From the NCBI GenBank assembly GCA_020328155.1, contig JAIXMX010000013.1, positions 1 through 35,256 of the forward strand: a DNA stretch of 35,256 nt, in the 5' to 3' direction. This DNA is from Candidatus Endomicrobiellum agilis. Its GTDB lineage: Bacteria; Elusimicrobiota; Endomicrobiia; Endomicrobiales; Endomicrobiaceae. Of this stretch, positions 2,955 through 29,021 are shown piece by piece. The stretch's first letter is position 1, and each line of letters starts with the position of its first letter. A program made the position numbers and the translations under genes. Below the pieces are notes generated by a model. The model was not told the DNA's origin. It did not search any database and saw nothing but the letters and a program-made list of their open reading frames with translations.

Positions 2955-3225
2955 AGGAATTTAAAACCTTCGGAAGGGTTGCCAAATAGCATATAAGAGT
3001 AAGCTCCGAGACTATGTCGGTTCCAACAATTTGCATCTGATAACTACTCTGAACTCTTAGAGTTTCATACTCTAATCCCAACAGTTAAACGGCTGATTCC
3101 TTATATTGAACTAAAACAAAATTTCAGCAGTCCGTCAAAACTCAGCAAGTTCGGGCTATACTTCTTATACTCAGACCAAGCCAAACATTAGTATTACATA
3201 TATGCGAAATAAAGATATTTTAAAT
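2955..3225 (+). repeat. degenerate dispersed repeat, copy 1 (decayed coding remnant)
   Basis: This stretch is alignable by eye with 6718-6965 and 9695-9942, all in the same orientation. The clearest shared part runs from the CTNTTAGA-like block near 3056 to the TTAGTATTACATATA-like end near 3205. In the plus frame beginning TGT CGG TTC (near 3015) it is open for about 58 codons and includes SELLEFHTLIPTVKRLI. Copy 2 keeps LLKFHAFIPTVK at the same place, so protein-level conservation suggests these are ends of a once-coding gene, now broken by stops and frameshifts. I do not recognise the parent; a transposase tail is one possibility. The rest of the gap 2762-2954 shows no gene. Confidence 0.5.
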
Positions 3226-3242
3226 TCGTTTTAGGACAGAAC

Positions 3243-3611
3243 CTAAATATATATAAAAGATTGTGGTGGGAAAGATACCCCAAAATCATTTAAATTTCTA
3301 CGTGTTTTATATTTTTTGGCAGAGTCTATTTCATAAGCATAGGCAATAGATTTTCCGTTAAAATACTTATAAAATCTTTCTTTGCTAATTCCCGCATTTT
3401 GATGTGTTAGTTTCCATAGGATAGCAGGCGGCTTTTTTATGATAGATTTTACTTTTAATTTCCCGACTATTTTCTTTACAGGGTAAGAGCAGTAAATAAC
3501 TATTGAATTCACATTGTTCTTGGCAAGAATACGCCGATATTCATACTTCTTGGTATTATTAAAAATTCTCTCGACATATTCCGGCTTGATAGATAGTAAA
3601 ATTTTACACAT
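3243..3611 (-). CDS. ASCH-domain protein
   Basis: A small (about 122 aa) protein that is almost entirely an ASCH domain, a PUA-like beta-barrel fold that binds RNA or modified nucleotides. It opens MCKILLSIKPEYVERIF and keeps the ASCH signature K-K-Y-E-Y-R-R at about residues 20-27. I start at the Met at 3611 because the domain begins immediately and no homologous-looking residues precede it; a longer frame to 3680 would run into the PIN gene. It is the last gene of the module I operon, 13 nt after the PIN-GNAT stop. The family includes nucleotide-reading and RNA-cleaving members; which applies here is unknown. Pairing with a PIN protein that also carries an EVE/ASCH-like domain suggests joint action on nucleic acid (inference). 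Confidence 0.7.
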   Translation of the reverse strand: MCKILLSIKPEYVERIFNNTKKYEYRRILAKNNVNSIVIYCSYPVKKIVGKLKVKSIIKKPPAILWKLTHQNAGISKERFYKYFNGKSIAYAYEIDSAKKYKTRRNLNDFGVSFPPQSFIYI

Positions 3612-3624
3612 TCTTATATTCCCT

Positions 3625-5142
3625 TTATAAAAAATTAATATTGGTTTGAGATTCTTTAAGAATAATATTAAATTGTGCATCTGTTATTTTTGTGAAAGGT
3701 CTTGGTCCCTCTCGAGAACATATTATTTCATTATCCCATAAGAAGCCAAGTGTTAGTCTTTTTGTTAAACTTTTTGTATAAATAAATTTTACAACCATAA
3801 GGCGTTTTAAATTTGCAGCAAATTTATCAAGGTCTTCTAACGGAAATACTGTCCTGTTCTGACAATGTCCCAAAAACTCTTCTTTTGACTTAAAATTGAA
3901 AACAATATTAGTAATAATTCCCAAACTTGTTATTACAGAAGAATATTTTTTATTACTTCCATGTTCTCCAATGCGATAAAACAATATAATATCACCCTTT
4001 TTGATGTCCCGCTCAGAAGTCCAAGAAATATATATTTTTTGCAATGCATATTTATGTGGTTCTTTGCCTAAAAAATCGTCTTCGTTCTCCGTATTTAGTT
4101 TTGAATCTGGCAATAGTGTAGTATGATATTTTGAATAAATAGGGAGTACAAATTTCTGTTTATTATATAAAATATTGGGAAAATTTTCTTGGACAGATAA
4201 AGAACTGTCATAACACCCTATTTTTTTCACAAAAACCGTTTCTTCGCCATCCTGAGTTTTTTTCTCGCCAAATTTGAAGAATCCCCAATGAAGAAGCAAA
4301 TCTGACAGAATTTGTAATTCTTCTCTGTTTTCAAACATAGTCAAGTATATCTCTCCGACTCCATATTGAGTAGCATTGTCAAAAATAATTTTAATAAATC
4401 TTTCGCCGAGTCTAAAGCCTGTTGATAGAACCTTAAAAGTTCCTACTTTCAGTCTTTGTTTTCTATTAAATTGTGGAGTTATATTATCATAACTTTCATT
4501 TTCGCCTTCTATTTTCAAATATAAGAAACCCAATATATTATTTTTATCGTCCTTACATATATATACTTCTTCTTCAGATTTTTTGTTAAACCAATAGGCA
4601 AATTTTTTATAATCTTTTTTGAAAGTATCAAAAAATGGTACTGATAAATCTATATTCCCAAATAATTCCTTTTTTACAGCAAGCATTTTATAATCAACGA
4701 GAGTAGGATTAGCTCCTGTCGCTTTTTCAATAAACCGATTGATAGACAACACTTTATCTTTAATACCAATACTTTCCGCTTTACTAATAAGTCTCTTATC
4801 TTCTGTTATTAATAAATCAGCTCTGCCGGAATATACATAAAAAAGTAATGAGTTATCTATTTTATCGTTTTCAGTTTTATCTGTATTTATAAAATTTTTC
4901 AGAAAGTCTTCGGATGGGGCACTCACTACTTTGATATGTTCATAGGCGCTAAGTTTTGCAAGGAGGTTTTCTCGAACAAACTTATCTTTATATTTTTCTA
5001 TTTCTCTTACGGTATAAGGATGGATAATTTTTGTGTAATGTAGTTTATCAAGCCACCTGTAAAGGCAACCTATATTGTAGTTTGAAACTACAGAATTCTC
5101 CCTATGAATAATGATATTTGTATCAAGTAATGCTTTCGGCAT
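3625..5142 (-). CDS. PIN nuclease - GNAT acetyltransferase - EVE/ASCH-like fusion protein
   Basis: About 505 aa with three recognisable parts. The N-terminus (residues 1-140) is a PIN-type ribonuclease domain: MPKALLDTNIIIHRE gives the first acidic residue (D7), VREIEKYKD the second, and an ENDKIDNSLL...LLITEDKRLI block the C-terminal acidic residues. Residues about 150-310 look like a GNAT acetyltransferase (ILGFLYLKIEGE; LKVGTFKVLSTGFRLGERFIK as acetyl-CoA loop; WGFFKFG end). The C-terminal third (KYALQKIYISWTSERDIKKG onwards, with GDIILFYRIGE) resembles an EVE/ASCH PUA-like barrel. All catalytic-type PIN residues seem kept. An alternative start at 5175 adds 11 residues overlapping the upstream gene; I prefer 5142, 4 nt after that gene's stop. 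The biological role is not known to me; a toxin or phage-defence effector is inferred from context. Confidence 0.65.
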   Translation of the reverse strand: MPKALLDTNIIIHRENSVVSNYNIGCLYRWLDKLHYTKIIHPYTVREIEKYKDKFVRENLLAKLSAYEHIKVVSAPSEDFLKNFINTDKTENDKIDNSLLFYVYSGRADLLITEDKRLISKAESIGIKDKVLSINRFIEKATGANPTLVDYKMLAVKKELFGNIDLSVPFFDTFKKDYKKFAYWFNKKSEEEVYICKDDKNNILGFLYLKIEGENESYDNITPQFNRKQRLKVGTFKVLSTGFRLGERFIKIIFDNATQYGVGEIYLTMFENREELQILSDLLLHWGFFKFGEKKTQDGEETVFVKKIGCYDSSLSVQENFPNILYNKQKFVLPIYSKYHTTLLPDSKLNTENEDDFLGKEPHKYALQKIYISWTSERDIKKGDIILFYRIGEHGSNKKYSSVITSLGIITNIVFNFKSKEEFLGHCQNRTVFPLEDLDKFAANLKRLMVVKFIYTKSLTKRLTLGFLWDNEIICSREGPRPFTKITDAQFNIILKESQTNINFL

Positions 5143-5146
5143 AGAA

Positions 5147-5398
5147 TTATTCAATTTGTGTATTTGTTCCATCATCAGCGATTTCTGTATCCTTTCTTTT
5201 TGGTTTTGGAGAGTTTAAAGATTTGGTTACCAATCTTGTTAAGTCCTTACTTATAAAACCTGACGAAGATTTTAATTCTTGTATTATAAACTGATAGTTT
5301 TTTCTCATTACATTTAATATAACTGTGCTTGGAATACTATCGACATTTAATTGAACACCTTTATCATGGATATTCTCTAAAATCTCTCTTTCATTCAT
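5147..5398 (-). CDS. small unrecognised protein coupled to methyltransferase and PIN genes
   Basis: An 83-aa protein starting MNEREILENIHDKGVQLNVD. I do not recognise a family. It is soluble-looking, with no membrane segment or signal peptide. The first 60 residues could be helical, and the tail is lysine-rich then acidic (KPKRKDTEIADDG). Its ATG overlaps the methyltransferase stop (ATGA, 5395-5398), and the PIN-GNAT gene begins within a few bases of its stop. Such double coupling suggests a real gene whose product works in stoichiometry with its neighbours, for example an antitoxin or specificity/adaptor subunit (inference). Confidence 0.5.
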   Translation of the reverse strand: MNEREILENIHDKGVQLNVDSIPSTVILNVMRKNYQFIIQELKSSSGFISKDLTRLVTKSLNSPKPKRKDTEIADDGTNTQIE

Positions 5399-6460
5399 AA
5401 GAAAAACTCCTCATAATTATTCGACACATTTATCCTTTGTTCCGAGAATACTACATATTCAGGGTTAATTTCAATACACAAATAATTTCTTCCAAGATTT
5501 TTAGCGGCGGCGCAAGTAGTCCCACCGCCACAAAATGGATATAATACGATATCGCCATTGCTAGATAACAATTTCAATAATTCTCGTGCTATGTATAACG
5601 GACATACAGCAGTATGTTTATTATCTTCTGTTATTTCGACAGGACTTTCTATTAGGTCTTTTTTTATAGCATTGCCTGTTATTTTGATAATCGTAAACCC
5701 ATTCCTTCTAATTTGATTATTTCGCCCACCTGTCATACCATCATATGTTTCTTTATGAATACCGCGAATTTTCATTCTAAAACTTTCAATTTTGACGAGG
5801 TGTACTTCTTTGACTTTTTTTAACGCACACACTGCATTTTCTTTTTCTTTCAGTGTTAAATTTGATTGGCGGATAGTATCAAAATATTTTCTTCCTACTT
5901 TTGAAAAATTAAAAGTTGTTTTTTATTCTTTCTATTTAAACGACTTAAATATTCATTTAATTTAAAGCAATACTCCTTTATCTTAGCAAAGACAAAAAAA
6001 GGCTTTGTGGACTGTATCAGTTTTCTATTCTCTTGTCTCGGGGTAAGGTTTGTTTTAGTCCGAGTGATTTGATTGATTAAGAAAACTTTGTTATTTTCTA
6101 ATGCCTTAAGAGCAAATTTATATGGAATTAGCGATAAATTACCATTTAGATATTTATATCCCAAATTAAAAACAAGCGCGCCCGTTGTTTTAACTACACG
6201 AGAACATTCATTAAATATTGATAGTAATTTATTCATATATTTTCCTTCCGTTGCTTCATTTCCAATACTATCACAGCCATAATCACGCTGTTGATAATAT
6301 GGCGAGGAAGTAATAGCCAAATCCATACTATTACAAATACTTTTTTAAAGAACGATAAAGCGTCTGAGCAGTGAACCTTATTTACCAAATCATTAATATC
6401 AAAGATATCATTATAATAAGTTTTCGTTGCTAAATTTCTATATACCTGTAATTTTTCCAT
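5395..6460 (-). pseudogene. DNA methyltransferase (beta-class, N4/N6 type), broken by two frameshifts
   Basis: Three frames join into one methyltransferase of about 355 aa. Frame 1 starts at ATG 6460 (AGGA 8-9 nt upstream) and gives EKLQVYRNLATKTYY...VHCSDALSFFKK. Frame 2 gives NSMDLAITSSPYYQQRDYG onward to LNRKNKK. Frame 3 continues NFSKVGRKYFDTIRQSN... to the SAM-binding PFCGGGTT and stops at 5395. Both breaks lie in A6 tracts on the coding strand (plus 6341-6346 and 5919-5924), and one extra A in each restores the frame. Catalytic motif IV comes before the SAM motif, the beta-class order. Key motifs have also drifted: expected TSPPY reads TSSPY, and DPFxGSGTT reads YPFCGGGTT. Either the gene is decaying, or the two breaks are homopolymer errors and only the motif changes are real. 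Confidence 0.8.
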
Positions 6461-6717
6461 TATCACATTCCTGTGTGATGGTAAACAATTGCCTCAACAA
6501 ATATATCCACACATATACCTTGCAATTTTGCGTTCTCATGATAAAATTATATCGTACAGAAATACAAAATACAATATATAATTAAAGAATTATTCGTTTA
6601 AGTAGGAATTAGTACTACGACTGTCAATAATACAAAAAAATCGAAACAACAAGTCAAAATTTGACATATATGAGCGAACAAAGGCGTACGTTGGGAGGTT
6701 GTTGAAAACAAGTAAGG

Positions 6718-6965
6718 ACCTAAGAAACCTTTTAACAGAATTGCCAAAAGGGTTTTTGTAAAAGAAAACTCTAAGACCATTGCAGATATCAAAACAACTT
6801 AACTCTAAACTATTGAAATTCCACGCTTTTATCCCCACGGTTAAATGCTCGATTGCCGATATAGAATTAACAATAATTTTAGTAGTCCGATAAATTTAGC
6901 GGATTTGGACTAATCTTAAACCCAGCAAATAGTTAGTATTACAGATAAATGAAATAAAAGGTTTT
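6718..6965 (+). repeat. degenerate dispersed repeat, copy 2
   Basis: Second copy of the sequence at 2955-3225, same orientation. The plus frame near 6809 reads LLKFHAFIPTVKCSIADIEL, matching LLEFHTLIPTVKRLIPYIEL of copy 1. Just upstream, FNRIAKRVFVKENSKTIAD (about 6725-6785) matches FGRVAK...VSSETMS of copy 1. It ends with AGTTAGTATTACAG..AAATGAAAT like the other copies. Stops and frameshifts make it non-coding now. It lies between the broken methyltransferase of module I and the methyltransferase of module II. Confidence 0.5.
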
Positions 6966-7289: not shown

Positions 7290-8198
7290 TTAAGTTAATA
7301 TTGATTGTTGTTCGAAGTTTATTCTTTTATTTGCCAAATTAATGTATTCCTGATTTACGTCATAACCTGCAAAATTGCGATTTGTTCTTATTGACGCTAA
7401 CGCAGTTGTTCCACTACCCATAAACGGGTCAAGAACAACATCGTTTGTAAAAGAATAAAGCTTGATTAGACGATATGGCAATTCTATTGGAAAAGGTGCC
7501 GGATGTCCAACACGTTTGGCGCTTTCTGCATTCATAGTCCATATTGATTTTGTCCACATCATAAATTCTTCTTTTGTTATAGTGTTTTGTTTAATGGACA
7601 ATTCCTCTTTTGCCCTTTCTCTCTTGTAGTTACCTTTTGAAAAGATTAAAATATATTCGTGTATGTCCCGTAAAATTGGGTTTGCCGCACTCTTCCAACT
7701 TCCCCAAGCGGTTGATGGACTTGCACTTGATTTTTTGTTCCAAATAATTTCACCGCGCATATTAAACCCAATTCCATTCATTATTTGCGATACATAATCA
7801 GACAAAGGAATATAGGGTTTGCGTCCCAAATTTGCGATATTGATACAAGCGCGCCCGCCATTTACTAAAACCCTGTAAGTTTCACTAAATGTTTCTTTTA
7901 ACAAATTTAAATATTCTGTTAATGATAAATCCTTATCATATTCTTTTGAAACATTATAAGGCGGAGATGTAATCATTAGATGTACCGAATTGTCCGGTAT
8001 TTCTTTCATATCAGTGCAAGAGCCTAAAATAATTTTATTAAGATATTTTTGAGGGAACTCATTTGTTTTGTCGGATATACTTTTCGTTTGTTGGAGTTCT
8101 TTATATAATTTCGAATTATAAAATTTTTCAGAATTATGATTTATTCTGCCGCTTGTGCCGAAAGTGCTGGTCTGAGTTCCATTTTTTTTATTTTTCAT
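7290..8198 (-). CDS. type II DNA methyltransferase (beta class, TSPPY)
   Basis: A 302-aa S-adenosylmethionine-dependent DNA methyltransferase, the modification half of the restriction-modification pair. Catalytic motif IV TSPPYN sits at residues 77-82 and the SAM-binding motif DPFMGSGTT near the C-terminus (257-265), the beta-class order. The centre holds the target-recognition region with GEIIWNKKSSASPSTAWGSW. Motif TSPPY occurs in N4-cytosine enzymes and in some N6-adenine enzymes, so the modified base cannot be fixed from sequence alone. The ATG overlaps the stop of the endonuclease gene (ATGA). Unlike the methyltransferase of module I, all key residues are intact. Recognition sequence unknown. 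Confidence 0.85.
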   Translation of the reverse strand: MKNKKNGTQTSTFGTSGRINHNSEKFYNSKLYKELQQTKSISDKTNEFPQKYLNKIILGSCTDMKEIPDNSVHLMITSPPYNVSKEYDKDLSLTEYLNLLKETFSETYRVLVNGGRACINIANLGRKPYIPLSDYVSQIMNGIGFNMRGEIIWNKKSSASPSTAWGSWKSAANPILRDIHEYILIFSKGNYKRERAKEELSIKQNTITKEEFMMWTKSIWTMNAESAKRVGHPAPFPIELPYRLIKLYSFTNDVVLDPFMGSGTTALASIRTNRNFAGYDVNQEYINLANKRINFEQQSILT

Positions 8199-9058
8199 AC
8201 TAAACCTCTTATGAGGTTTAAAAACTTTTCTGCCTTTTGTTCGTCATAGCTTTCTTTGCTTGATATATTTATAAACTCGCCAAGCTTCTTTTTGGGTATC
8301 ATTGATGAGAAGTAATTTAATTTGTCTTCTAATACTTCTTTTGTCTGTTGCTTAAGTAAAGATAAATTTTTTATAGTTAAAAACCCATTACCAGACGTTT
8401 TTTCAATAAAAGAAATACTAGTCGGTCTTGGGTTTAAAGACCAAAAACTTTGTACAGCTCCGGAGTTTTTTAAAAAATCTACTTTATGACTGTAATTTTC
8501 TGTAATGGGACTATTGCCTATAACAATAATTGGTATATTTGACGACGATATCCCGGAAACTCTTATGTTTATTGATTTTCCTATTGCTTTCAACATAGAG
8601 TCCGAACGCAATAAAGAAGGATTGCCTTTGTGAGTTTTGTAATCCCCAATAAATTTAATTTTGCCAGATTCATACTTATAGTTTGAAATGACGCTCATTT
8701 TGATTTCAAAAATTAATTTTACATTTTCTGGTACCTGTTTTTTTGAATTTGTAGTGCAAAAAGCCAAATCAGCTTCAGATCTTCTAGATAATCCAATTTT
8801 TTCACATTCTACGCCGTTAATTGCATAAAACCCAAGAGATCGAGCAATAGGAGTAAAAATATCTTTTGTCCATTTTTCTGTGAATTGCCCAATTAAAGAA
8901 TTTCTTGCTTGTAAAGCTTGCCCCTTGGCATTTTCGGTTTTTGGGACATATGCATAATAACCCGAATGTAAGTGATAGAATAGCTGCTCCGGTGTGGCAT
9001 AATTTTGTAATGCAGTTGTAAAAAATTGCAATTCCGACAACCTATCCCATAAGTCCAT
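8195..9058 (-). CDS. type II restriction endonuclease (PD-(D/E)xK)
   Basis: A 287-aa protein immediately upstream of, and overlapping, the intact methyltransferase. A PD-(D/E)xK nuclease core is visible: SEADLAF gives D97 and LIFEIKMS gives E118-x-K120. That arrangement, with the gene order R then M sharing an ATGA, supports a type II endonuclease that cleaves unmodified DNA at the site protected by its partner. The N-terminus (MDLWDRLSELQFF) follows a good ribosome binding site (AAAGGAGAGG about 8-10 nt before ATG). Full length and open, so probably functional. I cannot assign an isoschizomer group. Possible promoters upstream were not clear. Confidence 0.75.
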   Translation of the reverse strand: MDLWDRLSELQFFTTALQNYATPEQLFYHLHSGYYAYVPKTENAKGQALQARNSLIGQFTEKWTKDIFTPIARSLGFYAINGVECEKIGLSRRSEADLAFCTTNSKKQVPENVKLIFEIKMSVISNYKYESGKIKFIGDYKTHKGNPSLLRSDSMLKAIGKSINIRVSGISSSNIPIIVIGNSPITENYSHKVDFLKNSGAVQSFWSLNPRPTSISFIEKTSGNGFLTIKNLSLLKQQTKEVLEDKLNYFSSMIPKKKLGEFINISSKESYDEQKAEKFLNLIRGLV

Positions 9059-9694: not shown

Positions 9695-9942
9695 GAAGAA
9701 TGTGTTTAACAATCTACATACTACATAAAAAAACTCCGGAAACTGTCTGAAGTTACAACAATTCGTATCTGCTATTACTCCGAATTACTAGAATTCTACG
9801 CTTACTCATACTGTTGAATGATTAATTGCTGATATAGAACCAAATGCTAATTTTAACAGTGTATTAAATTCAGCGGTTTTGAGTTATACTTCTTGTACTT
9901 AATCGTTAGTACTTACATATAAATGAAATTAAAAATATTTTA
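9695..9942 (+). repeat. degenerate dispersed repeat, copy 3
   Basis: Third copy of the sequence at 2955-3225 and 6718-6965, same orientation. It reads KKLRKLSEVTTIRICYYSEL then LEFYAYSY in one frame (near 9730-9805) and VE*LIADIEPN in another, matching SELLEFHTLIPTVKRLI of copy 1 with frameshifts. It ends with GTTAGTACTTACATATAAATG, like the ends of copies 1 and 2. It separates the restriction-modification pair from the HEPN gene plus CRISPR locus. Confidence 0.5.
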
Positions 9943-9951
9943 TATTTAAGT

Positions 9952-10848
9952 TTAAGATAGCAATTTAAGCGGCGGTCTGGTTGATTCTACTTTGTCGCTA
10001 ATTTGACATATTGCCGCTTTTAAAACTTGGAAACATATTTTTGCCGTATGCTCATCTGGCTGAAACCTTGACGACTTTTGTTTACATGGATGGATATAAT
10101 TTCTAAAATCCCGGAGAACATGACTAAACTTTTTCACATCTTCAAGTATAAAACCTAATTCACAAGCAGTATCGATACTTTCGCCTAGCTTCCATTTAGG
10201 AAAAGGTTTAATTTTATTATCGCTGTCTTTTTGAGCAGAATCCGCCTGATTAAATTTTTCTGGATATTTAATCATAATACTTAACAGCAATCCTTCCAAT
10301 ACACTACCACACATAAATATAGTAGATAAATTTGCTTTAGAGTGCATACACTTTTTTATTTCTTCTATTCGCTCAGTTATTATTTTTTGCAATAACGAAT
10401 CAATGTTAAGATATTTTAGATTTATATCTTCAAATTCTTTATTCAGAAACTCATTTTCACTATCAGTTATCTTACTATCAACATTTCTTTTTAAAAAGCT
10501 ATCTGTCGAATCTACAAATATTATCTCTTTATCTTGTCTTACAACTAACCAACCATCAAACGAAATATATTTATTGAAATCTGCGATTAGGGAATCTAAT
10601 TTATCAAATTCACCAACAAAGTTAATAGGAGCAAATACATTCCTAATACACTTACATAAATTAGGGGTGTTATTGATTTGTTTTAATTTGTCTTCTATAT
10701 ACCACCAACGAGAAGGGAATCCTTTACAGTAAGTATCGTTGAATCCGAAAGCATTAAAAAATTCTACTAATTTTGGACCACTTCTATATTTTATTTTTTC
10801 GTTAATAAGTTCTCTTAAATATTCTAATGTTTTTTGATTTAACTGCAT
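9952..10848 (-). CDS. AbiJ-like protein with C-terminal HEPN RNase motif
   Basis: A 298-aa protein. The N-terminal half (LRELINEKIKYRSGPKLVEF, then FNDTYCKGFPSRWWYIEDKL and KCIRNVFAPINFVG) resembles the AbiJ N-terminal domain found in abortive-infection proteins. The C-terminal half is helical and ends with RDFRNYIH (R246-x6-H253), which fits the R-x4-6-H active-site motif of HEPN ribonucleases. The predicted role is a defence RNase that harms the host or phage transcripts on infection; this is family-level inference, not shown here. A ribosome binding site (AGGAG at 8-9 nt) precedes the ATG. Only 34 bp separate the start from the oldest CRISPR repeat, leaving little room for a private promoter, so transcription may come through the array. 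No frameshifts. Confidence 0.65.
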   Translation of the reverse strand: MQLNQKTLEYLRELINEKIKYRSGPKLVEFFNAFGFNDTYCKGFPSRWWYIEDKLKQINNTPNLCKCIRNVFAPINFVGEFDKLDSLIADFNKYISFDGWLVVRQDKEIIFVDSTDSFLKRNVDSKITDSENEFLNKEFEDINLKYLNIDSLLQKIITERIEEIKKCMHSKANLSTIFMCGSVLEGLLLSIMIKYPEKFNQADSAQKDSDNKIKPFPKWKLGESIDTACELGFILEDVKKFSHVLRDFRNYIHPCKQKSSRFQPDEHTAKICFQVLKAAICQISDKVESTRPPLKLLS

Positions 10849-10882: not shown

Positions 10883-13800
10883 ACTTCAATTCACGTGCCT
10901 ACACAAGGCGCGACGAAATTCAAGCGACCACTTTTGAGGACGAGCTGGATTTCAATTCACGCGCCTACACAAGGCGCGACATGCCCCAAATCTATAGGAT
11001 TGCCGCCGGGCAAAATTTCAATTCACGCGCCTATACAAGGCGCGACCCCGATATTAGGCAATTTTTGTTTGACAGAAAAATATTTCAATTCACGCGCCTA
11101 TACAAGGCGCGACTCTCTCTTTTATAAATGTTAAATACTGATAATCCATTTCAATTCACGCGCCTATACAAGGCGCGACAATTATGATAAACGAGGTGAG
11201 CGAGCAAAGACTTATTTCAATTCACGCGCCTACACAAGGCGCGACGGACGAGGCCTTTAACGCTAAGAGAGCCAAACTAATTTCAATTCACGCGCCTACA
11301 CAAGGCGCGACCGAAGCCGCACAGAATTTGCAATGGGATAGGCAGATTTCAATTCACGCGCCTACACAAGGCGCGACTTAGGATTTGTTTACAAGGATTA
11401 TCCAAATCAATACATTTCAATTCACGCGCCTACACAAGGCGCGACGAACTACATCGGTCTATTTTAGAAGACTATAACAATTTCAATTCACGCGCCTACA
11501 CAAGGCGCGACGAGACTATATCCGCAAATGGCGGACGTATTTAAAATTTCAATTCACGCGCCTACACAAGGCGCGACTATATAACTTCGGCTCAGTATCC
11601 TTATCCCACCCATTTCAATTCACGCGCCTACACAAGGCGCGACAAGCACTGCCCAGCCCCATTGACCCAGTAGGGATATTTCAATTCACGCGCCTACACA
11701 AGGCGCGACATGGATTTAACGATAGAGCGGCAGTACAAGAAGCCATTTCAATTCACGCGCCTACACAAGGCGCGACACGTGGGCGTATTAACGATAAACA
11801 ATGCAGCGCCCATTTCAATTCACGCGCCTACACAAGGCGCGACTGTAAATAAAGGCATATCCGCAGCCACAGGACTTGATTTCAATTCACGCGCCTACAC
11901 AAGGCGCGACCGGCACATTTACGCAAGTATGGCAAGAGGACGTAAATTTCAATTCACGCGCCTACACAAGGCGCGACGTATCTTACCCGAAAGAGACAGA
12001 CGCTACAACCAATTTCAATTCACGCGCCTATACAAGGCGCGACAGAAATTACTGTAGGTGATGAGGCTCTAGTAGGCATTTCAATTCACGCGCCTATACA
12101 AGGCGCGACAACATAAAAAGCTAAAGCTTTTAAACCGGGCTGTATTTCAATTCACGCGCCTATACAAGGCGCGACCCTTAAAACAATCCCAAGGGCAATG
12201 GCAAGCTTTGATTTCAATTCACGCGCCTATACAAGGCGCGACGGTACTATCGGATGCGAAGCAGACGGAACCTTACATTTCAATTCACGCGCCTATACAA
12301 GGCGCGACTGATAGGACTTTTAATACTCCGAAAGAAGCAAAAATTTCAATTCACGCGCCTATACAAGGCGCGACAATCTTAGACAGAACGGATTTCATGT
12401 TATAATATAATTTCAATTCACGCGCCTATACAAGGCGCGACCTGGCTGGGATGGCCAGATATATGCGACAGTTGTATTTCAATTCACGCGCCTATACAAG
12501 GCGCGACACTACTGTTAAGCCTTTGCCGTTATTTACAATTATTTCAATTCACGCGCCTATACAAGGCGCGACGATTAATGCGTTGCCTTTGTGCGGGATT
12601 GATTTAATTTCAATTCACGCGCCTATACAAGGCGCGACTTGAGAAATATTTGGAACGGTGCAAGTTTTGGAGCATTTCAATTCACGCGCCTATACAAGGC
12701 GCGACCCACACAAGCACACGGCTGATTTTCGGAATTTCTATTTCAATTCACGCGCCTATACAAGGCGCGACATGAATGTGTGGGAAAGCGACGCAGAAAC
12801 ACAGCAATTTCAATTCACGCGCCTATACAAGGCGCGACAAGAATGGCGTGGGAAGAAATTAAACGAGGGATGATTTCAATTCACGCGCCTATACAAGGCG
12901 CGACGCCCACTGGTCTTCTACCTGAGGATATATATAAGTTATTTCAATTCACGCGCCTATACAAGGCGCGACTTTAAAATGATGTCGGAATCTGCGAAGA
13001 AGTTTGATTTCAATTCACGCGCCTATACAAGGCGCGACCTTTGCAGAAGGCGGAGCTATCAAGAGACTGCCCATTTCAATTCACGCGCCTATACAAGGCG
13101 CGACGTTTCGCAATATAGGCTGTAATTTGATTGTAAGCATTTCAATTCACGCGCCTATACAAGGCGCGACTGCGTTAAAGGTTACCTCTTTGTCAATATC
13201 AGCATTTCAATTCACGCGCCTATACAAGGCGCGACCAAACGTAAGCTGATAATCGTCCCCGCCGTACGATTTCAATTCACGCGCCTATACAAGGCGCGAC
13301 TAAAGTAAAGTGTTAAGGATTTATGAGATTATCGATTTCAATTCACGCGCCTATACAAGGCGCGACGCAAGGTGTGGGACAATCGCGTATGCCTTTACAG
13401 ATTTCAATTCACGCGCCTATACAAGGCGCGACAATTTATGCAAACCGATGAGCGACCCGAACTTGTGATTTCAATTCACGCGCCTATACAAGGCGCGACG
13501 GCGTTTATAACGCATGCGTGTTTAGCCGCCAAAATTTCAATTCACGCGCCTATACAAGGCACGACAAGATAGAACCCGCGCATTTAACGAAGATTTAGCA
13601 TTTCAATTCACGCGCCTATACAAGGCGCGACTATACGGAAGTATTGGCTGAAATGTTGCCGATGGATTTCAATTCACGCGCCTATACAAGGCGCGACTAT
13701 ACGGAAGTATTGGCTGAAATGTTGCCGATGGATTTCAATTCACGCGCCTATACAAGGCGCGACATGCAGTTGAAAGCTACTTGGCGCATTTAATCGCAAT

Positions 13801-16800
13801 TTCAATTCACGCGCCTATACAAGGCGCGACTATTGTGGACATAGAGTTACAGCCAATACCTGGAGATTTCAATTCACGCGCCTATACAAGGCGCGACGAG
13901 GCAGGCGAGACAAGTAACGCCAGAGGGACCCATTTCAATTCACGCGCCTATACAAGGCGCGACACGGAAAGCAGGCTAGGGCAAGCGGAGCAGGCTCATT
14001 TCAATTCACGCGCCTATACAAGGCGCGATGGAACATTTGGCAAGGGAACTTGTTTTATTAAAAATTTCAATTCACGCGCCTATACAAGGCGCGATTGGCG
14101 GAGCCTGTAATGGGAAAATGGTCAATAGTAATTTCAATTCACGCGCCTATACAAGGCGCGATGGACTACAGGTAGTCCTCAAGGTAACATGTCAGATTTC
14201 AATTCACGCGCCTATACAAGGCGCGATATTATATGTCAGAGTGACAAACGAGGCGGACAATATTTCAATTCACGCGCCTATACAAGGCGCGATGTACTCG
14301 AAAAAAATAATCGGTACGTGCCGGAAAATTTCAATTCACGCGCCTATACAAGGCGCGATCGTAAAGCTTGCCTGTAAACGCAAATTCTAAAACAATTTCA
14401 ATTCACGCGCCTATACAAGGCGCGATAGGACGGGGGGAAAAATGAAAATAAAAGAATGGATTTCAATTCACGCGCCTATACAAGGCGCGATGTGTTTGCG
14501 TGATTAGTAAACGAAGCGGTTAATTTATTTCAATTCACGCGCCTATACAAGGCGCGATCAGTACGGAAAAATACACTCGTGAATCTGTGAAATTTCAATT
14601 CACGCGCCTATACAAGGCGCGATACCAAGTAAAACATTGCAAGTATGCACACCATTACATTTCAATTCACGCGCCTATACAAGGCGCGATGTAGGCAGAG
14701 CCGAAGATACTACGTTTATGCGAGATTTCAATTCACGCGCCTATACAAGGCGCGATAGCCCATATACAGCTGGTCTAACTGCTACATTAGGATTTCAATT
14801 CACGCGCCTATACAAGGCGCGATTAGCAAAAATGAGAGAGCTTAGCGAGCGGCTGAGAATTTCAATTCACGCGCCTATACAAGGCGCGATTAAGTTTCCT
14901 TACAACCTTTGTTGCGTGTTTCTTAATTTCAATTCACGCGCCTATACAAGGCGCGATCGCCCTGTTTTGTATTGATGATACTTTTGACCCCATTTCAATT
15001 CACGCGCCTATACAAGGCGCGATTTTGTCAACAGTTCAAGTTCTCTTTGTCTATACTATTTCAATTCACGCGCCTATACAAGGCGCGATAAAAAAATACA
15101 GGAGTTAGAAGAAGAACTAAACGATTTCAATTCACGCGCCTATACAAGGCGCGATATTTCCTTCGTCTAAAATGCGTTTAATTTCTTTTATTTCAATTCA
15201 CGCGCCTATACAAGGCGCGATTTTCCCTATAAAGGATGTCCGTTTACAACTGTGAATTTCAATTCACGCGCCTATACAAGGCGCGATTATGGCGCACGAT
15301 ATAGTGGCGGTGAAAGGAAAAATTTCAATTCACGCGCCTATACAAGGCGCGATTTTGCTGTCATTCTCTCGTCAAACCATTTCTTGAAAATTTCAATTCA
15401 CGCGCCTATACAAGGCGCGATACTGTGGTAGATGTTACGGGCAATACATTTGATGAATTTCAATTCACGCGCCTATACAAGGCGCGATCTGCCCAAAGGT
15501 AGCGGCGTCCAACGCGGCTGTAGATTTCAATTCACGCGCCTATACAAGGCGCGATCTGGTTATGTTTTTCTTCTTCTTCTTCCAGCAGTTTAAATTTCAA
15601 TTCACGCGCCTATACAAGGCGCGATCGTACTCTTGTAAAACGCCCTCGCGAAATCCAGGGATTTCAATTCACGCGCCTATACAAGGCGCGATTAAACTAT
15701 CGTCGCCTATCATGTTTCCCGTATCGGGATTTCAATTCACGCGCCTATACAAGGCGCGATGTTCCGGTCGGGGAAGGGAAAGCCGTAAGAGTAACCATTT
15801 CAATTCACGCGCCTATACAAGGCGCGATCAGTGCCATCGGCCGAGTTTAAAACAACATCGGGCGATTTCAATTCACGCGCCTATACAAGGCGCGATCTTA
15901 TTGCATTCTGCGTGCGCTTTTGCCACCACAATTTCAATTCACGCGCCTATACAAGGCGCGATATCTGAAATTCCGAAAATTAAACGGGTGTTTATATATT
16001 TCAATTCACGCGCCTATACAAGGCGCGATGAATATTGGTGTGCTTAATCATTTTGCCAAAATAATTTCAATTCACGCGCCTATACAAGGCGCGATCTTGT
16101 CAACTACTACCTGCCTTTTCTTTTCTTAACATTTCAATTCACGCGCCTATACAAGGCGCGATACCACATGGTGCGGTTTTTTTTTATTGTTGACCTTATT
16201 TCAATTCACGCGCCTATACAAGGCGCGATCGTTTACAAATATAGGGTGTAATTTAGTAATCGCCATTTCAATTCACGCGCCTATACAAGGCGCGATGTGA
16301 TGTTGTACTACGGGCAAAAGCGTTCATTTACATTTCAATTCACGCGCCTATACAAGGCGCGATCACAGTAGATAAGTTACGGGCATATAACCATTGCATT
16401 TCAATTCACGCGCCTATACAAGGCGCGATAATTCTGAAACGGGCAGTTGTATCCATTTGGTTGATATTTCAATTCACGCGCCTATACAAGGCGCGATAAT
16501 CTACTGTCTCTGCTCTTCACACCAAAGTGAGCATTTCAATTCACGCGCCTATACAAGGCGCGATACGCTACTAATAGGATTTTTGCTGTAACTGATAAAT
16601 TTCAATTCACGCGCCTATACAAGGCGCGATACCCCATCAATGCGTTACGTTGCGCCTACGCTGAATTTCAATTCACGCGCCTATACAAGGCGCGATCCCG
16701 TTTGTCGCAAAACAGAACTACCGTCGGCAAATTTCAATTCACGCGCCTATACAAGGCGCGATATTACCTGTTAACCAGCCCTGTATATCCGTGTTAATTT

Positions 16801-19800
16801 CAATTCACGCGCCTATACAAGGCGCGATCCCTAAATCCTGCTGAGCGGCGTTGGGAGCAAAAATTTCAATTCACGCGCCTATACAAGGCGCGATCAGAGC
16901 CAAGCACAATCTCAGCTGCGCACAAACAAATTTCAATTCACGCGCCTATACAAGGCGCGATGGCAGACCAGACGTTTACCTGTGCTAACCCTACGATTTC
17001 AATTCACGCGCCTATACAAGGCGCGATTATCCATCTAACTCCACCATCTTCCCAAATAAATATTTCAATTCACGCGCCTATACAAGGCGCGATCTCAGCG
17101 GCGTACTGTTCCGCCATTTGCGGATACATTTCAATTCACGCGCCTATACAAGGCGCGATTACGGCGCATTTAAAAAGTTTGTGAGAGGCGAAATTTCAAT
17201 TCACGCGCCTATACAAGGCGCGATTATGCTGGCTTTCGGCACAAAAGGAATTTTAGACATTTCAATTCACGCGCCTATACAAGGCGCGATCAACAAGATG
17301 CGGCAGAGGAACAAAATCCGTACGATTTCAATTCACGCGCCTATACAAGGCGCGATATGATGGATTTAACGTGGGAAGACGCAGAGAACTATTTCAATTC
17401 ACGCGCCTATACAAGGCGCGATGGGCAACGAGTATCGAACCTATCGGCGTGGCGGATTTCAATTCACGCGCCTATACAAGGCGCGATTATCGAATGTTTA
17501 CAAAATTATCGGTACGGAGAAATTTCAATTCACGCGCCTATACAAGGCGCGATCAGCGTTAACACCTGCCCACCCGCCTGCGGCGCATTTCAATTCACGC
17601 GCCTATACAAGGCGCGATTTAACGTCGCTTGGGTCTGCACCTCTAAAACAAACATTTCAATTCACGCGCCTATACAAGGCGCGATCACCCTCTTTTTTAC
17701 TAGCCGACGGGGAGACGCCATTTCAATTCACGCGCCTATACAAGGCGCGATACAGGATATTTATCCTCATTTGTCCCAAGAAGCCATTTCAATTCACGCG
17801 CCTATACAAGGCGCGATGTTGCAGTTCCGCCAATGCATTCACTCGCTCCGTATTTCAATTCACGCGCCTATACAAGGCGCGATTACTTCGGTCTCATTCG
17901 TGATGACGATAGGCTTAATTTCAATTCACGCGCCTATACAAGGCGCGATACCCGCTTCTCTGGCTCTTTGCATCATATTAACGGATTTCAATTCACGCGC
18001 CTATACAAGGCGCGATCGTATGCGGGTGCGGGCGGCGATGCCGAGACAGCATTTCAATTCACGCGCCTATACAAGGCGCGATAAGCGTATTTTACCGAAT
18101 TGCCTAACGTTTTTATATTTCAATTCACGCGCCTATACAAGGCGCGATGATGAAATATACTGATATACCGAAGTGCCGCACAATTTCAATTCACGCGCCT
18201 ATACAAGGCGCGATTAAACATGCTTTTAGAGTTGGCCATAGACTCGGCATTTCAATTCACGCGCCTATACAAGGCGCGATAACTTTTATCCAGACTCGAA
18301 GAATATTTAAGTAAGATTTCAATTCACGCGCCTATACAAGGCGCGATAAGACAAGATAAAAGAGTTGAGCGAAACGTTTCCATTTCAATTCACGCGCCTA
18401 TACAAGGCGCGATTGTAAGTTTTTCCGGCGGACAGAACTTAGAACTAATTTCAATTCACGCGCCTATACAAGGCGCGATCATTTGGTATTTCTCTGCTTC
18501 GTCGCCTGTGGCTAATTTCAATTCACGCGCCTATACAAGGCGCGATCTGTTACGGTTCGTAGTTTAAGTTTTTACGCTAGAATTTCAATTCACGCGCCTA
18601 TACAAGGCGCGATACAGTAGATAAGTTACGGGCATATAACCATTGCATTTCAATTCACGCGCCTATACAAGGCGCGATCTCGGGAGTTTCTATCCCTGCT
18701 GCTCTAGAATAGATTTCAATTCACGCGCCTATACAAGGCGCGATTTGCTGTGTTAATATCCAACGCGTGCCCGTCAATCGATTTCAATTCACGCGCCTAT
18801 ACAAGGCGCGATCGTTCCGACAATGATTTCCGACAACCCGTCTTTAATTTCAATTCACGCGCCTATACAAGGCGCGATAACAGCAAAATCATGCCAATCC
18901 TTTTTTGCGTAAATTTCAATTCACGCGCCTATACAAGGCGCGATCTGTTCGTACTTCAGGCTGTCTCTTAGGTTTCCAATTTCAATTCACGCGCCTATAC
19001 AAGGCGCGATAAGAAGGAAAAAGAGCTGTGAGTAAGCTTAAGAGATTTCAATTCACGCGCCTATACAAGGCGCGATCAACTAATGCAACGTTAAGCCCTG
19101 ATAAGTATCCATTTCAATTCACGCGCCTATACAAGGCGCGATGTCGGCCAAAAAATCCAAGCCTCTATGCTTCCCCATTTCAATTCACGCGCCTATACAA
19201 GGCGCGATTTACATGGATGTAATTAAGGCATCAATGGTAAACATTTCAATTCACGCGCCTATACAAGGCGCGATTCTTTTTTGCCGGGCGGCAATCAACA
19301 AGACTTGGATTTCAATTCACGCGCCTATACAAGGCGCGATTCATTGGACGTATCGGCGGTATATCGAGGGGCGCATTTCAATTCACGCGCCTATACAAGG
19401 CGCGATCCAGACTAGCGTGGGTAGCTATTCTTTTAAATACATTTCAATTCACGCGCCTATACAAGGCGCGATTCACTCGGCTCACTCAGCAACTTGCCCA
19501 GAGAAAAATTTCAATTCACGCGCCTATACAAGGCGCGATGAGGAAATAAAAAAGATGTTAGCCTAACGGCTTATTTCAATTCACGCGCCTATACAAGGCG
19601 CGATCGCCAGGGTTGTCAAAAGCTGTAGGTGCCAAACTAATTTCAATTCACGCGCCTATACAAGGCGCGATGAATCATCTCTGGCGCAGTAATGCACTAT
19701 CGAAATTTCAATTCACGCGCCTATACAAGGCGCGATGGCTGGATTAAATAGGTAGAGATTATGCCGAAACCATTTCAATTCACGCGCCTATACAAGGCGC

Positions 19801-20465
19801 GATCTGTCGGGGGATGGTGCTGGGGCGCCACCGCAACAATTTCAATTCACGCGCCTATACAAGGCGCGATGAATCATCTCTGGCGCAGTAATGCACTATC
19901 GAAATTTCAATTCACGCGCCTATACAAGGCGCGATAAGAAATGAAGCTGTATGGCAACCCCCCGAAATGATTTCAATTCACGCGCCTATACAAGGCGCGA
20001 TAGCCAGCCCAGATGGCAGAGGCTAGCTTGCCAGAATTTCAATTCACGCGCCTATACAAGGCGCGATGAAATGGATAAAGTTAGGTTGGAAACTTAGAGC
20101 CATTTCAATTCACGCGCCTATACAAGGCGCGATGCTGGATTAAATAGGTAGAGATTATGCCGAAACCATTTCAATTCACGCGCCTATACAAGGCGCGATC
20201 CGGTTATAAAGAGGGAGTTTTGCAAGAGTACGAAATTTCAATTCACGCGCCTATACAAGGCGCGATGTGCATGTAACACTAGAAGAGTCTGTAGAGTTTA
20301 ATTTCAATTCACGCGCCTATACAAGGCGCGATGTGAAAAAGATAATCTGCGACGATAAAAAGAAAAATTTCAATTCACGCGCCTATACAAGGCGCGATGC
20401 ACAGACTATATCGGAGGCAAACGTGGAAGAATCATTTCAATTCACGCGCCTATACAAGGCGCGAT
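10883..20465 (-). CRISPR. type I-C CRISPR array, 145 repeats and 144 spacers (hand count)
   Basis: 32-bp repeats with spacers of about 33-36 bp (mean unit 66.3 bp). In transcript orientation (minus strand) the repeat starts RTCGCGCCTTGTATAGGCGC (R is G or A) and ends GTGAATTGAAAT. CGCGCC/GGCGCG forms the 6-bp hairpin with loop TTGTATA, and the last 11 nt would be the crRNA 5' handle, as in type I-C. The leader is at the high-coordinate end next to cas2, so new spacers enter at 20465 and the oldest are near 10883. The oldest repeat is degenerate at two sites (one in the stem). Repeats fall into blocks: loop TTGTGTA with first base G (repeats 1-2, 6-17 counted from the low end), loop TTGTATA with first base G (3-5, 18-47), and loop TTGTATA with first base A (48-145, from 13998). 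Repeat 41 (13534-13565) has one private change. Several spacers recur (see findings). Open frames full of SIHAPIQGAT or FNSRAYTRRD are translations of repeats, not genes. Confidence 0.98.
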
Positions 20466-20657
20466 AGTACGACAAAAACTAATTATGAATTCAATATATT
20501 TTTTATAAATTTTGCGAACTATCTATTTTCGTCGTAATATTATTAACACATTCTTAATTCTCATTCATTTTTCAATGTGCGATACTAATGAATAATCCTC
20601 GATTACATATAATTCGCATTATTAAAATTTATCAAAAAAAATATATGTCCACTATTG
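20466..20657 (-). promoter_or_regulatory. CRISPR leader
   Basis: The 192 bp between the cas2 stop and the first (leader-end) repeat is very AT-rich and open of genes, as a CRISPR leader should be. It must carry the array promoter and the signals used for spacer integration. I could not single out convincing -35 and -10 boxes. Short open frames on the plus strand here and across cas2 are antisense artefacts. Confidence 0.7.
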
Positions 20658-20948
20658 CTATATTATCAACGTTCCATGTAAATCAACAGGTTCCTTACAG
20701 CCATAATGCTCTATTTTCCTTTTCCAATTTGAACCAAGCATATAAAACCTTATACTGTCTCTTTTTAAGTCTGCAATATTCAATAATTTATCCTTTAAAA
20801 AAACCCACTGAGTAGGATCGACTTCACATTCAAAAACTGAAAATTGAACCCTTTGTCCATAGTCCAAACATACTTTAGAAACCCTTCTTAAACGTCTTTG
20901 CCCTCCTACATCGACAGTACTTATGTCATAGCTTATCAAAACTAACAT
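20658..20948 (-). CDS. cas2: CRISPR-associated endonuclease Cas2 (type I-C)
   Basis: A 96-aa protein of normal Cas2 length. The first strand LVLISYDIST carries the conserved Asp (D8), and FSVFECEVDPTQW and a short C-terminal strand complete the ferredoxin-like fold. Cas2 dimers bridge two Cas1 dimers in the spacer-integration complex; catalysis by Cas2 itself is dispensable for integration in studied systems. It is the last gene of the cas operon, 8 nt after cas1, and lies nearest the leader. Confidence 0.95.
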   Translation of the reverse strand: MLVLISYDISTVDVGGQRRLRRVSKVCLDYGQRVQFSVFECEVDPTQWVFLKDKLLNIADLKRDSIRFYMLGSNWKRKIEHYGCKEPVDLHGTLII

Positions 20949-20956
20949 AATTTATC

Positions 20957-21991
20957 CTATTTCCAAATAAACGGTGGATATGCATCAATATCCCCTCTTA
21001 TATACCTAGCAAAAAGCAAAGCCTGTGCATGATATAAAAGCCCTATATGTATAGTCTCTTTCAAGAAAGGATGAAATATTTCTTCCTCTTTCCTCTTTCT
21101 ATATGAGTCTATAACAACCTTTTTATTATCATCTTTCATTATTACTCCACCGCTCGGAGATTCTGAAAAACCATCAGCATCGATTTGAGATAGATTGATT
21201 AAAGTAAGAACCAATCTATCAGCTATTACAGATCTAAATTCTTCCATCATATCTAAAGCCAAACTCGGTCTGCCGGGTCTATCTTTGTGTAAGAACCCAA
21301 CTTGAGGATCTAATCCGACTCCTTCCAATGCTGACGAAACATCATGCGCCAATAAAGTATATACAAAAGAAAGAAGACAATTAACTCTGTCTTTCGGAGG
21401 ACGCCTGTTTCTATCGGTCATAAAAAACTTTTCTTTGCGATCTAATATCAGTTCATTAAAGACACTAAAATAAGAACCAGCAGCATCGCCCTCCATGCCA
21501 CGTAATACATCTACATTCTCAGCATTAAAAGTATTATCAATTGCTTTGTGTAAACCATAAGATACTTGTTTCAGTCTATCAGAATTAGGTATTTTCTCTT
21601 CATGATCCCTTAATGCTCTGTTTATTACAGTTCTTGAATTATTTAACTTTCCAAGTAATATTGATCTGGCTGTTTCCAGACAAAATTTTTCATCATCTGA
21701 ATATCTATATTGCTGTTTTCTCAAAAGAACATTGCCTGAAATAGGAGATTGTACTTTTGCTATAAATTTTCCATACTCTGTAAAGTAGCTCACAGAAACA
21801 TCATTTTCGGCACACAATCCTAAGAGAAAAGGTGAACATAAAACATTCCCAAAACAAACCATCGAATTAATCAGATGAATTGGCGCTCTAAATAATTCTT
21901 TACCCTGTAAACTAACTACAATATTCTCGCGCTCTTTTGATACATATGTTCCTTGCGTTGAAATACAAAGCGTACTAAATAGTTTCTTCAT
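20957..21991 (-). CDS. cas1: CRISPR-associated endonuclease Cas1 (type I-C)
   Basis: 344 aa, normal for Cas1c. The integrase metal site is visible: E167 in RGMEGDAAGSYF, H235 in VGFLHKDRPGRPSLALD and the acidic residues just after it (LALDMMEEF). Cas1 with Cas2 cuts and joins prespacers into the leader-end repeat. The start overlaps the cas4 end by 17 nt, indicating coupling. The frame is intact, in keeping with the many identical recent repeats, which imply active acquisition until recently. Confidence 0.96.
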   Translation of the reverse strand: MKKLFSTLCISTQGTYVSKERENIVVSLQGKELFRAPIHLINSMVCFGNVLCSPFLLGLCAENDVSVSYFTEYGKFIAKVQSPISGNVLLRKQQYRYSDDEKFCLETARSILLGKLNNSRTVINRALRDHEEKIPNSDRLKQVSYGLHKAIDNTFNAENVDVLRGMEGDAAGSYFSVFNELILDRKEKFFMTDRNRRPPKDRVNCLLSFVYTLLAHDVSSALEGVGLDPQVGFLHKDRPGRPSLALDMMEEFRSVIADRLVLTLINLSQIDADGFSESPSGGVIMKDDNKKVVIDSYRKRKEEEIFHPFLKETIHIGLLYHAQALLFARYIRGDIDAYPPFIWK

Positions 21992-22613
21992 TATTTATAA
22001 CTTCTTTTAAATATTCCTTTATAGATTTTTTGCTTCCAAACATTTCGGGCAAACATAATTCTTTAAATGAACAATTATTGCATTTTTTTGAATATTCAGA
22101 TTTTGGTGTTTTTTCACTATCAACTAAATCATGAAATTCTTGAGCAAGCGCAGAAGTTTCGTCTCTTAAAGATTTATCAAACTCAACATTTAGACGATTG
22201 CGAGTTTTCCCATAAAATATCGCACCACTTTCTATCGCAATATTCATCATATCCTCAAGACACATAGCCTGCGCACAAAGCTGGACTTTATCTGTATTAT
22301 TATCTTTCGCCTTACCGATTTTATATTCAACAGGGAACGGAATTAATTTACTCCCAGATTTATGAAATTCCACAATATCGCTCTTCCCTATTAAACCAAG
22401 TTTATAAGACTTAAGATAAACATCGCGTTCAATAATTACGCCTTTTTTATGCTCTATTTTTTCTGTGTGAACTTTATCGTGCATAACAATTCCTTTTGCC
22501 GTAAAGAAATTGTCTGCCCATTGTTGTTCAATAAAAAGTAAGGCACATCTGCGTTTGCAATAAGACAGCTGGTATAATCCTCTTATATGAAGCAAATCAT
22601 CTTCACAATACAT
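21975..22613 (-). CDS. cas4: CRISPR-associated exonuclease Cas4 (type I-C)
   Basis: 212 aa. Four-cysteine Fe-S cluster ligands are in place: SYCKRRC near residues 19-23 and CNNCSFKELC near the C-terminus. The RecB-type nuclease core is seen as FPVEYKIGKAK (E-x-K) followed by the Q-rich QLCAQAMCLED helix. In type I-C systems Cas4 trims prespacers and ensures they are taken next to the right PAM and inserted in the right direction. It starts 4 nt after cas7 and overlaps cas1. Confidence 0.95.
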   Translation of the reverse strand: MYCEDDLLHIRGLYQLSYCKRRCALLFIEQQWADNFFTAKGIVMHDKVHTEKIEHKKGVIIERDVYLKSYKLGLIGKSDIVEFHKSGSKLIPFPVEYKIGKAKDNNTDKVQLCAQAMCLEDMMNIAIESGAIFYGKTRNRLNVEFDKSLRDETSALAQEFHDLVDSEKTPKSEYSKKCNNCSFKELCLPEMFGSKKSIKEYLKEVINNEETI

Positions 22614-22617
22614 TAAC

Positions 22618-25372: not shown

Positions 25373-25452
25373 TATTTTACCTCCGCATTTCCAAACATAT
25401 TTTCATATTCCGTATCAACGTTTAAAATATTGTTATCTAAAGCATATTGATT

Positions 25453-28558: not shown

Positions 28559-29021
28559 TGTAAAACCTCCCTCTACACAAGTCATTTTAATATATTTGTT
28601 AAATAGAAAACAAAGATTAGCAATACTTTTTTCATTTTTTTCAAATAATTTTAATCTTCGCCCCCACGTGAGGCACGGCTATATTTTCTAATCGTTTCTG
28701 TATCTATTTTATTGACGATTGCCGGCATTTTCAAAAAAACAACATTTAATCATTTCCACGTCAGTTTTTGCCAACGATAACTGCTCGCTTACTGTTCTAA
28801 GTTCAATCTTTACTAGCGACGTGTCGTTTTTGTTCATATTTCGACTTACAGAGAATTAATTTTTTTTCTTTATACAATTACGTTTCGTGGCAAAATAACG
28901 CAACATAACGAGATATTTCGGCTTGCCATATGACAAACCGACGGAAAAACTGCTGCGGCAACTGATACAATACATATCTTTCATGCATTTGTCGTAAGTT
29001 TGACAACCTGCATTATAATGT
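28559..29021. other. gene-poor gap upstream of cas3
   Basis: Apart from the cas3 ribosome binding site and presumed operon promoter at the left edge, I see no open or rebuildable gene. The GC content rises around 28660-28850 and 28890-28990, which may reflect decayed coding sequence, but no family could be read in any frame. Confidence 0.4.

Follow-up and report, generated by a model that had tools for sequence, protein, structure and literature searches.

Results

Genes at the locus

We analyzed a 35,256-nt stretch of DNA from Candidatus Endomicrobiellum agilis (contig JAIXMX010000013.1, positions 1 to 35,256), referred to here as the window; its genome is labeled G000. Four open reading frame (ORF) stretches follow one another on the minus strand: a region related to N6/N4-type DNA methyltransferases (5395–6466), an ORF of 83 amino acids (aa; 5147–5398), the gene of a 505-aa PIN-GNAT-EVE protein (3625–5142) and the gene of a 122-aa ASCH protein (3243–3611). 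The original prediction, made from the letters of the sequence, took all four for a single operon encoding a modification-sensing defense system. The close spacing that it described is present among the window ORFs: the methyltransferase region and the 83-aa ORF share an ATGA overlap, 4 nt separate the 83-aa ORF from the PIN-GNAT-EVE gene, and 13 nt separate the latter from the ASCH gene. Our analysis points to the last two genes as the element of interest, a putative cassette that probably acts as a toxin or abortive-infection system, and to the two upstream ORF stretches as debris.

Judged by its sequence, the pair is a member of the known (PIN)-GNAT-EVE/ASCH type, PDC-M11 in PADLOC. The 505-aa protein matches model PDC-M11A (PDLC04422) at 2.6e-185 over 14–515, scanned as the longer ORF 3625–5175, and the ASCH protein matches PDC-M11B (PDLC04425) at 4.8e-44, scanned as the longer ORF 3243–3680. 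In the 505-aa protein, the PIN domain occupies approximately residues 1–140, the GNAT domain residues 152–310 and the EVE/PUA-like domain approximately residues 325–501. The acidic residues D7, D93, D96 and D115 of the PIN domain are invariant (54/54 sequences) and E47 is found in 53/54; a PIN_3 match at E 0.01 or better was obtained for 21 of 54 relatives and an EVE match for 11. The window protein thus appears to carry an N-terminal PIN domain with its acidic residues. An AlphaFold2 model computed from the alignment of 54 sequences had a mean predicted local distance difference test score of 87.3. Structure comparison with VIA-align reached two of the three folds, and not the PIN part. Residues 152–310 adopt a GNAT fold (Z 14.7, root-mean-square deviation (rmsd) 2.7 over 152 residues to Naa60), while residues 328–499 adopt an EVE/PUA-like fold (Z 13.9, rmsd 2.3 over 139 residues to ZmASCH). 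The PIN/GNAT/PUA-like fusion that had been read from the translation is therefore upheld by the PIN matches and acidic residues and by the GNAT and PUA/ASCH-type folds of the model, and the C-terminal domain is PUA-like, as had been supposed.

The stand-alone ASCH partner is likewise confirmed, by the PDC-M11B match and by a profile of 32 ASCH sequences whose closest solved relative found is ZmASCH (8e-22); in Pfam, the window protein has a sub-threshold ASCH match. ZmASCH (Zymomonas ZMO0922) is a weak single-stranded RNA nuclease, and excerpts of the study report mutants of Y47, K53 and S128 (PMC5615036). According to the printed alignment these residues pair with Y40, K46 and S118 of the window ASCH. 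Y40 and S118 occur in 32/32 sequences, which together with the profile match places the family with the ZmASCH type. The equivalent of K53 differs in being kept in only 12/32, and nuclease activity of the window ASCH is putative. Both frames of the pair are open, and both genes are under purifying selection: against three genus relatives, the ratio of nonsynonymous to synonymous substitution rates (dN/dS) was 0.14–0.17 for PIN-GNAT-EVE and 0.09–0.12 for ASCH.

The upstream ORFs and the recombination joint

The methyltransferase region consists of three ORFs in different frames, two of which hold parts of PF01555. Its DNA aligns lengthwise with intact genes, showing single-base gaps near 6334 and 5919 relative to the copy in genome G020, and is 78–81% identical to four open-frame copies (in G020, G013 and G005, and G000:C16 in the same genome as the window). 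All four copies have the catalytic motifs TSPPY and DPFCGSGTT, which read TSSPY and YPFCGGGTT in the window. By the NG86 method, with dS near saturation, dN/dS of the three pieces against the copies was 0.08–0.27, as compared with 0.05–0.07 among the copies. The window methyltransferase is a pseudogene. We considered whether its frame breaks might be sequencing errors, which their position in or close to A/T runs makes possible; such errors would still leave both substituted motifs and the truncated following gene. With two frame breaks and both catalytic motifs substituted, the region was rejected as a working part, and the functional methyltransferase of the supposed operon has to be given up.

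The 83-aa ORF draws on two sources. Over its first ~23 codons it resembles the beginning of a 373-aa gene, which in relatives follows the intact methyltransferase; from there on it resembles the tail of a 97-aa protein in G034 and a 67-aa ORF in G005. DNA related to the methyltransferase/373-aa gene pair extends to ~5330, and DNA related to the G005 locus begins at ~5320 and continues to 3243, so that a recombination joint, to which no strand applies, lies at 5320–5330. The 83-aa ORF is evidently a chimera across this joint, a by-product of recombination; having partial matches to two different sources, it was rejected as a conserved component, and its proposed role as a small protein of the system lapses. 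Of a companion restriction gene next to the methyltransferase, the window retains the ~23 codons of the 373-aa gene; that gene has no clear Pfam family and may encode a restriction enzyme, judging only by its position.

The tight coupling of the methyltransferase and the 83-aa ORF to the pair is best read as a by-product of the recombination joint and not as operon evidence. Debris of a cassette exchange is the best explanation for both. A false four-gene system is thereby struck from the list, and the case illustrates how a tight operon can be mimicked by a pseudogene together with a recombination joint.

Copies of the pair in Endomicrobiaceae

Among 149 genomes searched, the window's included, nine carry the PIN-GNAT-EVE protein or its remains; G097, with weak PIN-like pieces only, was dropped from the family test. 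Relative to the PIN start codon, DNA homology to the window pair begins at −1 in G020 and G050, −8 in G064, −9 in G034, +6 in G012 and −178 in G005, that is, within 9 nt in five out of six comparisons. It ends at +1896 to +1899 in G005, G012 and G050, where the ASCH stop is at +1899, and at +2022 in G020; in G034 it halts at +999, and in G064 it consists of short pieces. These limits suggest that the pair is exchanged as a unit beginning approximately at the start codon of the PIN gene.

The neighbors of the pair are varied restriction-modification (R-M) genes. Beside it are found a D12 methyltransferase with an AlwI-type enzyme (G012), a C5 methyltransferase with a HaeIII-type enzyme (G020) or a Bpu10I-type enzyme (G049), and N6/N4 methyltransferases (G005, G034); in G024 a D12 methyltransferase lies near the remains of the pair, and in G050 the pair is located between the HsdM and HsdR genes of a type I system. 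A methyltransferase is present within 4 kb in 8/9 genomes (not in G064), whereas 0.71 would be expected under random placement (P ~1e-9), in a calculation with rounded genome sizes and no correction for defense islands. The nearest methyltransferase in the window is the pseudogene; when the window genome is excluded, the count is 7/8 (P ~1e-8).

In the tree, the window protein and those of homologous loci L044, L045, L046 and L071 form one clade with a Shimodaira–Hasegawa-like approximate likelihood ratio support (SH-aLRT) of 100, and their R-M neighbors differ; the G049 protein, on a very long branch, and L103 (G064) fall outside it. The R-M label switches at least 16 times on the tree, and the label for an AAA_17 ATPase gene at least 13 times. 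The cassette thus apparently settles beside R-M genes of unrelated types. The original prediction included the sensing of the partner's methyl mark; since the partner methyltransferases of close relatives change (N6/N4, D12, C5, type I) while the PIN-GNAT-EVE protein stays alike, such sensing is disfavored.

Homologous loci

The wider survey covered the best 80 of 301 confirmed loci. ASCH directly follows PIN-GNAT-EVE in 74/80, fusions included. Of the remaining six, L071 and L081 are at contig ends, L083, L096 and L105 have another gene and L100 has none found. The replacing gene in L083, L096 and L105 stands right after PIN-GNAT-EVE and encodes a 315–374 aa protein (cluster 13), one member of which was scanned and had no Pfam match. 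A natural PIN-GNAT-EVE-ASCH fusion is found in L065 (5320–7236), and in L057 (3162–4259) ASCH is fused to an HNH nuclease domain; HNH-cluster genes lie near the pair in seven loci. An AAA_17 gene is present in 37/80 loci, in 33 of them at most 60 nt upstream (representative Pfam AAA_17 match, 8.1e-17).

Methyltransferases were screened by motifs and clusters and were found within 4 kb in 18/80 loci, a lower bound, 4 kb of upstream sequence being present in only 60/80. Eleven of these calls came from Pfam scans or family searches and seven from clustering with scanned members (L052, L053, L057, L095, L101, L114, L118); L044, L046, L047 and L071 of the eleven, and L045, were called through the same contig under its G label. 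The count leaves out L061 (aminoglycoside acetyltransferase), L076 (radical SAM), L115 (gamma-glutamyltranspeptidase), L107 (no family), L100 (opposite strand, unscanned) and L083, L089 and L098, in which the motif lies inside PIN-GNAT-EVE. Whether a locus has AAA_17 was not clearly correlated with whether it has R-M (median p 0.625) when 21 loci were labeled R-M, namely the 18 plus L051, L054 and L072 with type I genes; here and in the tree, the R-M labels of the window and of L031 were assigned by hand.

Twenty upstream neighbors, picked from a list and not a census, were scanned. They included type III Res, a D12 methyltransferase, NgoFVII, PD-(D/E)XK, AbiTii and HNH genes, one NotI-like gene just under the cut-off, and others without an evident defense role. 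The neighborhood thus bears on the earlier expectations in two ways. The defense setting holds, several of the scanned neighbors being restriction or abortive-infection genes. The expected co-occurrence with a methyltransferase does not: the prediction was to fall if homologs proved to be mostly without a methyltransferase and away from defense genes, and the first half of this is what the screen gave (none found within 4 kb in 62/80, presence being a lower bound), while the second half is not, as defense genes are near.

Relatives of the pair also occur in phage genomes and on plasmids. In phage psiM100 (L003, 3569–6861), an annotated inserted fragment (3569–6361) comprises genes for 252-aa and 107-aa proteins, HATPase-like and STAS-like by eye, together with the greater part of the PIN-GNAT-EVE gene. 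ORF5, the ASCH gene, is not within the fragment and is recorded as common to phage psiM2.

Other features of the window

At 7290–9058, a second methyltransferase with an open frame (PF01555, 6e-49) overlaps a 287-aa ORF for which no match was found in Pfam, PADLOC or NCBIfam; the two may constitute an R-M pair whose restriction enzyme is of an undescribed kind. A 298-aa protein at 9952–10848 has a weak DUF4145 match and a partial match to the Stk2 model (5.7e-12). A long repeat-rich stretch, resembling an array of clustered regularly interspaced short palindromic repeats (CRISPR), occupies 10895–28585 and is followed by a set of cas genes, in which Cas2 matches the Cas2c model and the remaining genes are of type I-C by eye. 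Three decayed sequence copies in the same orientation (3019–3226, 6802–6958 and 9752–9946), ~67% like the first, flank the defense modules and may be past recombination sites; G005 has three matches to a small ORF related to them. Promoter-like sites numbered 34 where shuffles gave 26.2 (sd 5.1), and there was 1 terminator-like site where shuffles gave 1.9. The Rfam scan at the gathering threshold gave tRNA as its sole match.

Discussion

We favor, with a probability of about 0.6, the reading that PIN-GNAT-EVE and ASCH form a two-gene, exchangeable toxin or abortive-infection cassette riding on R-M loci, with the pieces upstream of it in the window as debris. Because GNAT and PIN are toxin classes in excerpts of Bell et al. 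2020 (PMC7641849), the function would be expected to be RNA-acting; by analogy, a toxin or abortive-infection effector directed at RNA, probably tRNA, under the control of ASCH is most likely. In such a mechanism the EVE domain, and ASCH with it, would bind to RNA through a feature of a base or of an end, with tRNA as the most plausible partner. The GNAT domain would acetylate the bound feature or its amino acid, the PIN domain would cut the RNA and stop translation upon release, and ASCH would restrain the effector or shape its RNA binding. The cassette may then be a second line of defense beside R-M. Toxicity, the antitoxin role, the RNA target and the link to R-M failure are what we infer here.

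Several observations weigh against this reading. In Pfam, the window PIN-GNAT-EVE protein has PIN_3 and PIN_4 matches that are below the curated cut-offs (E 0.012–0.013) and neither an EVE nor a GNAT match. A GNAT family is listed for 0/54 relatives, and the GNAT assignment consequently stands on the fold. The EVE fold match comprises four entries of one protein, ZmASCH. A model of the L065 fusion aimed at the contact between PIN-GNAT-EVE and ASCH failed (predicted template modeling score 0.41), and no AAA_17 gene was found in the ten window ORFs scanned. As for the association with R-M, the loci in which a methyltransferase was found are a minority in the wider survey, whose count is a lower bound; the R-M type of G005 and G034 is shared through descent (83% over 1,536 bp); and defense genes cluster in islands, so R-M adjacency need not mean function. 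Among the nine family copies, three have suffered damage: internal stops in G012 and G024, and a cut in G034.

A system in which the methyltransferase marks self DNA, EVE and ASCH read the mark, and PIN and GNAT act would agree with the close gene spacing and with the methyltransferases near the pair in eight of the nine family genomes, but it is extremely unlikely given a methyltransferase that is broken twice with both key motifs altered, a chimeric 83-aa ORF, partner methyltransferases of unrelated types in close relatives and the 62 loci in which none was found. Scarcely better placed, and still very unlikely in our view, is an acetylase/deacetylase toxin-antitoxin in which ASCH erases the acetyl mark set by GNAT. 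The model for it is YqfB, an ASCH-superfamily N4-acetylcytidine amidohydrolase; in excerpts of its study K21A, T24A and R26A are inactive and Glu74 is also important (PMC6972931). The window ASCH family has a K..E.R motif (K21, E24 and R26 in 32/32 sequences) that looks equivalent, with the K and R positions retained, although the equivalence was drawn by eye and numbering and not by alignment. So matched, the Thr nucleophile at position 24 is Glu in 32/32, and the closest solved relative found, ZmASCH, is a weak single-stranded RNA nuclease. With the nucleophile position changed, a YqfB-like deacetylase role for ASCH is disfavored.

Two further explanations keep the pair as the functional unit and differ in what it does. 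It could be a guardian of R-M, a PrrC-like cassette that an intact R-M complex or host methylation keeps silent and that is freed when a phage blocks restriction. PrrC and PARIS are described as such guardians (PMC12707154, in excerpts), the pair sits beside or inside R-M loci, as in G050, and with several R-M types adjoined its trigger would be a general one. Against this, the search within 4 kb found no R-M gene for the majority of the 80 loci, phage genomes and plasmids also carry relatives, and the R-M adjacent to the window pair is dead, though the R-M-like pair at 7290–9058 has an open-frame methyltransferase. We regard a guardian as possible but rather unlikely. The pair could instead be a selfish addiction cassette, an ordinary toxin-antitoxin carried along on mobile R-M loci, which it helps to maintain, without a specific antiviral role. 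Its exchange as a unit, its relatives on plasmids and in phages, and the reported mobile-element nature of R-M loci in an intracellular symbiont (by the title of Zheng et al. 2016) would fit; the PIN-fused form is nonetheless among the PADLOC defense candidates and is reported with R-M and CRISPR loci (PMC7641849, in excerpts), and addiction and defense roles are not mutually exclusive. This is a possible alternative that we hold to be somewhat on the unlikely side.

Returning to the exchangeable toxin or abortive-infection cassette, a more specific form of it can be put forward tentatively, as a conjecture more doubtful than the guardian just discussed: a universal plug-in guard that could be placed next to systems of type I, type III and several kinds of type II, whatever methyl mark they set, with a tRNA-directed shut-off when the adjacent R-M fails or is blocked. 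A guard-type role can be tested directly, given that the pair behaves as an exchangeable cassette found next to R-M systems of unrelated types.

Comparison with known systems

The original prediction knew of no described mechanism combining these parts. The pair is in fact described as a predicted toxin-antitoxin system in Bell et al. 2020 (PMC7641849) and has an entry in PADLOC, PDC-M11. Excerpts of that study treat proteins of the GNAT-EVE kind, many of which begin with a PIN domain, as predicted toxin-antitoxin systems, partnered almost always by an ASCH gene and often by an AAA_17 ATPase; the PIN form is placed near type I R-M and CRISPR, and the PIN-less form is common in prophages (PMC7641849). 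The same excerpts state that no module of these systems was experimentally characterized, and cite Iyer et al. 2013 for PIN-GNAT-EVE with ASCH (PMC7641849). The window pair resembles this type in its identical domain order, the ASCH gene directly downstream, the defense-rich setting and the strength of both PADLOC matches. It differs in that the window is without an AAA_17 gene, a frequent but not defining partner there, and in that the Endomicrobiaceae pairs adjoin several type II R-M families besides type I. A literature search by the name PDC-M11 returned no paper, and the excerpts of an archaeal survey using PADLOC candidates name PDC-M05 and not PDC-M11.

The record of Escherichia coli phage PhiR47_2 annotates a GNAT-EVE/ASCH pair without PIN as a toxin, GevT, and its antitoxin, GevA; none of the papers listed deals with it, and one may exist. 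The two pairs share the GNAT-EVE and ASCH genes and their order, the GNAT-EVE proteins aligning at 34% over residues 164–516 of the query ORF; GevT/GevA differs in having no PIN in the aligned part and in its lambda-like phage carrier. Compared with the open-frame N6/N4 R-M pair at G000:C16, the methyltransferase copy in the window has broken frames, changed motifs and a cut following gene. As toxin-type genes positionally linked to R-M, the window genes are also like PrrC and PARIS, presumably as different proteins; for the window pair, a trigger by R-M would be an extension by analogy.

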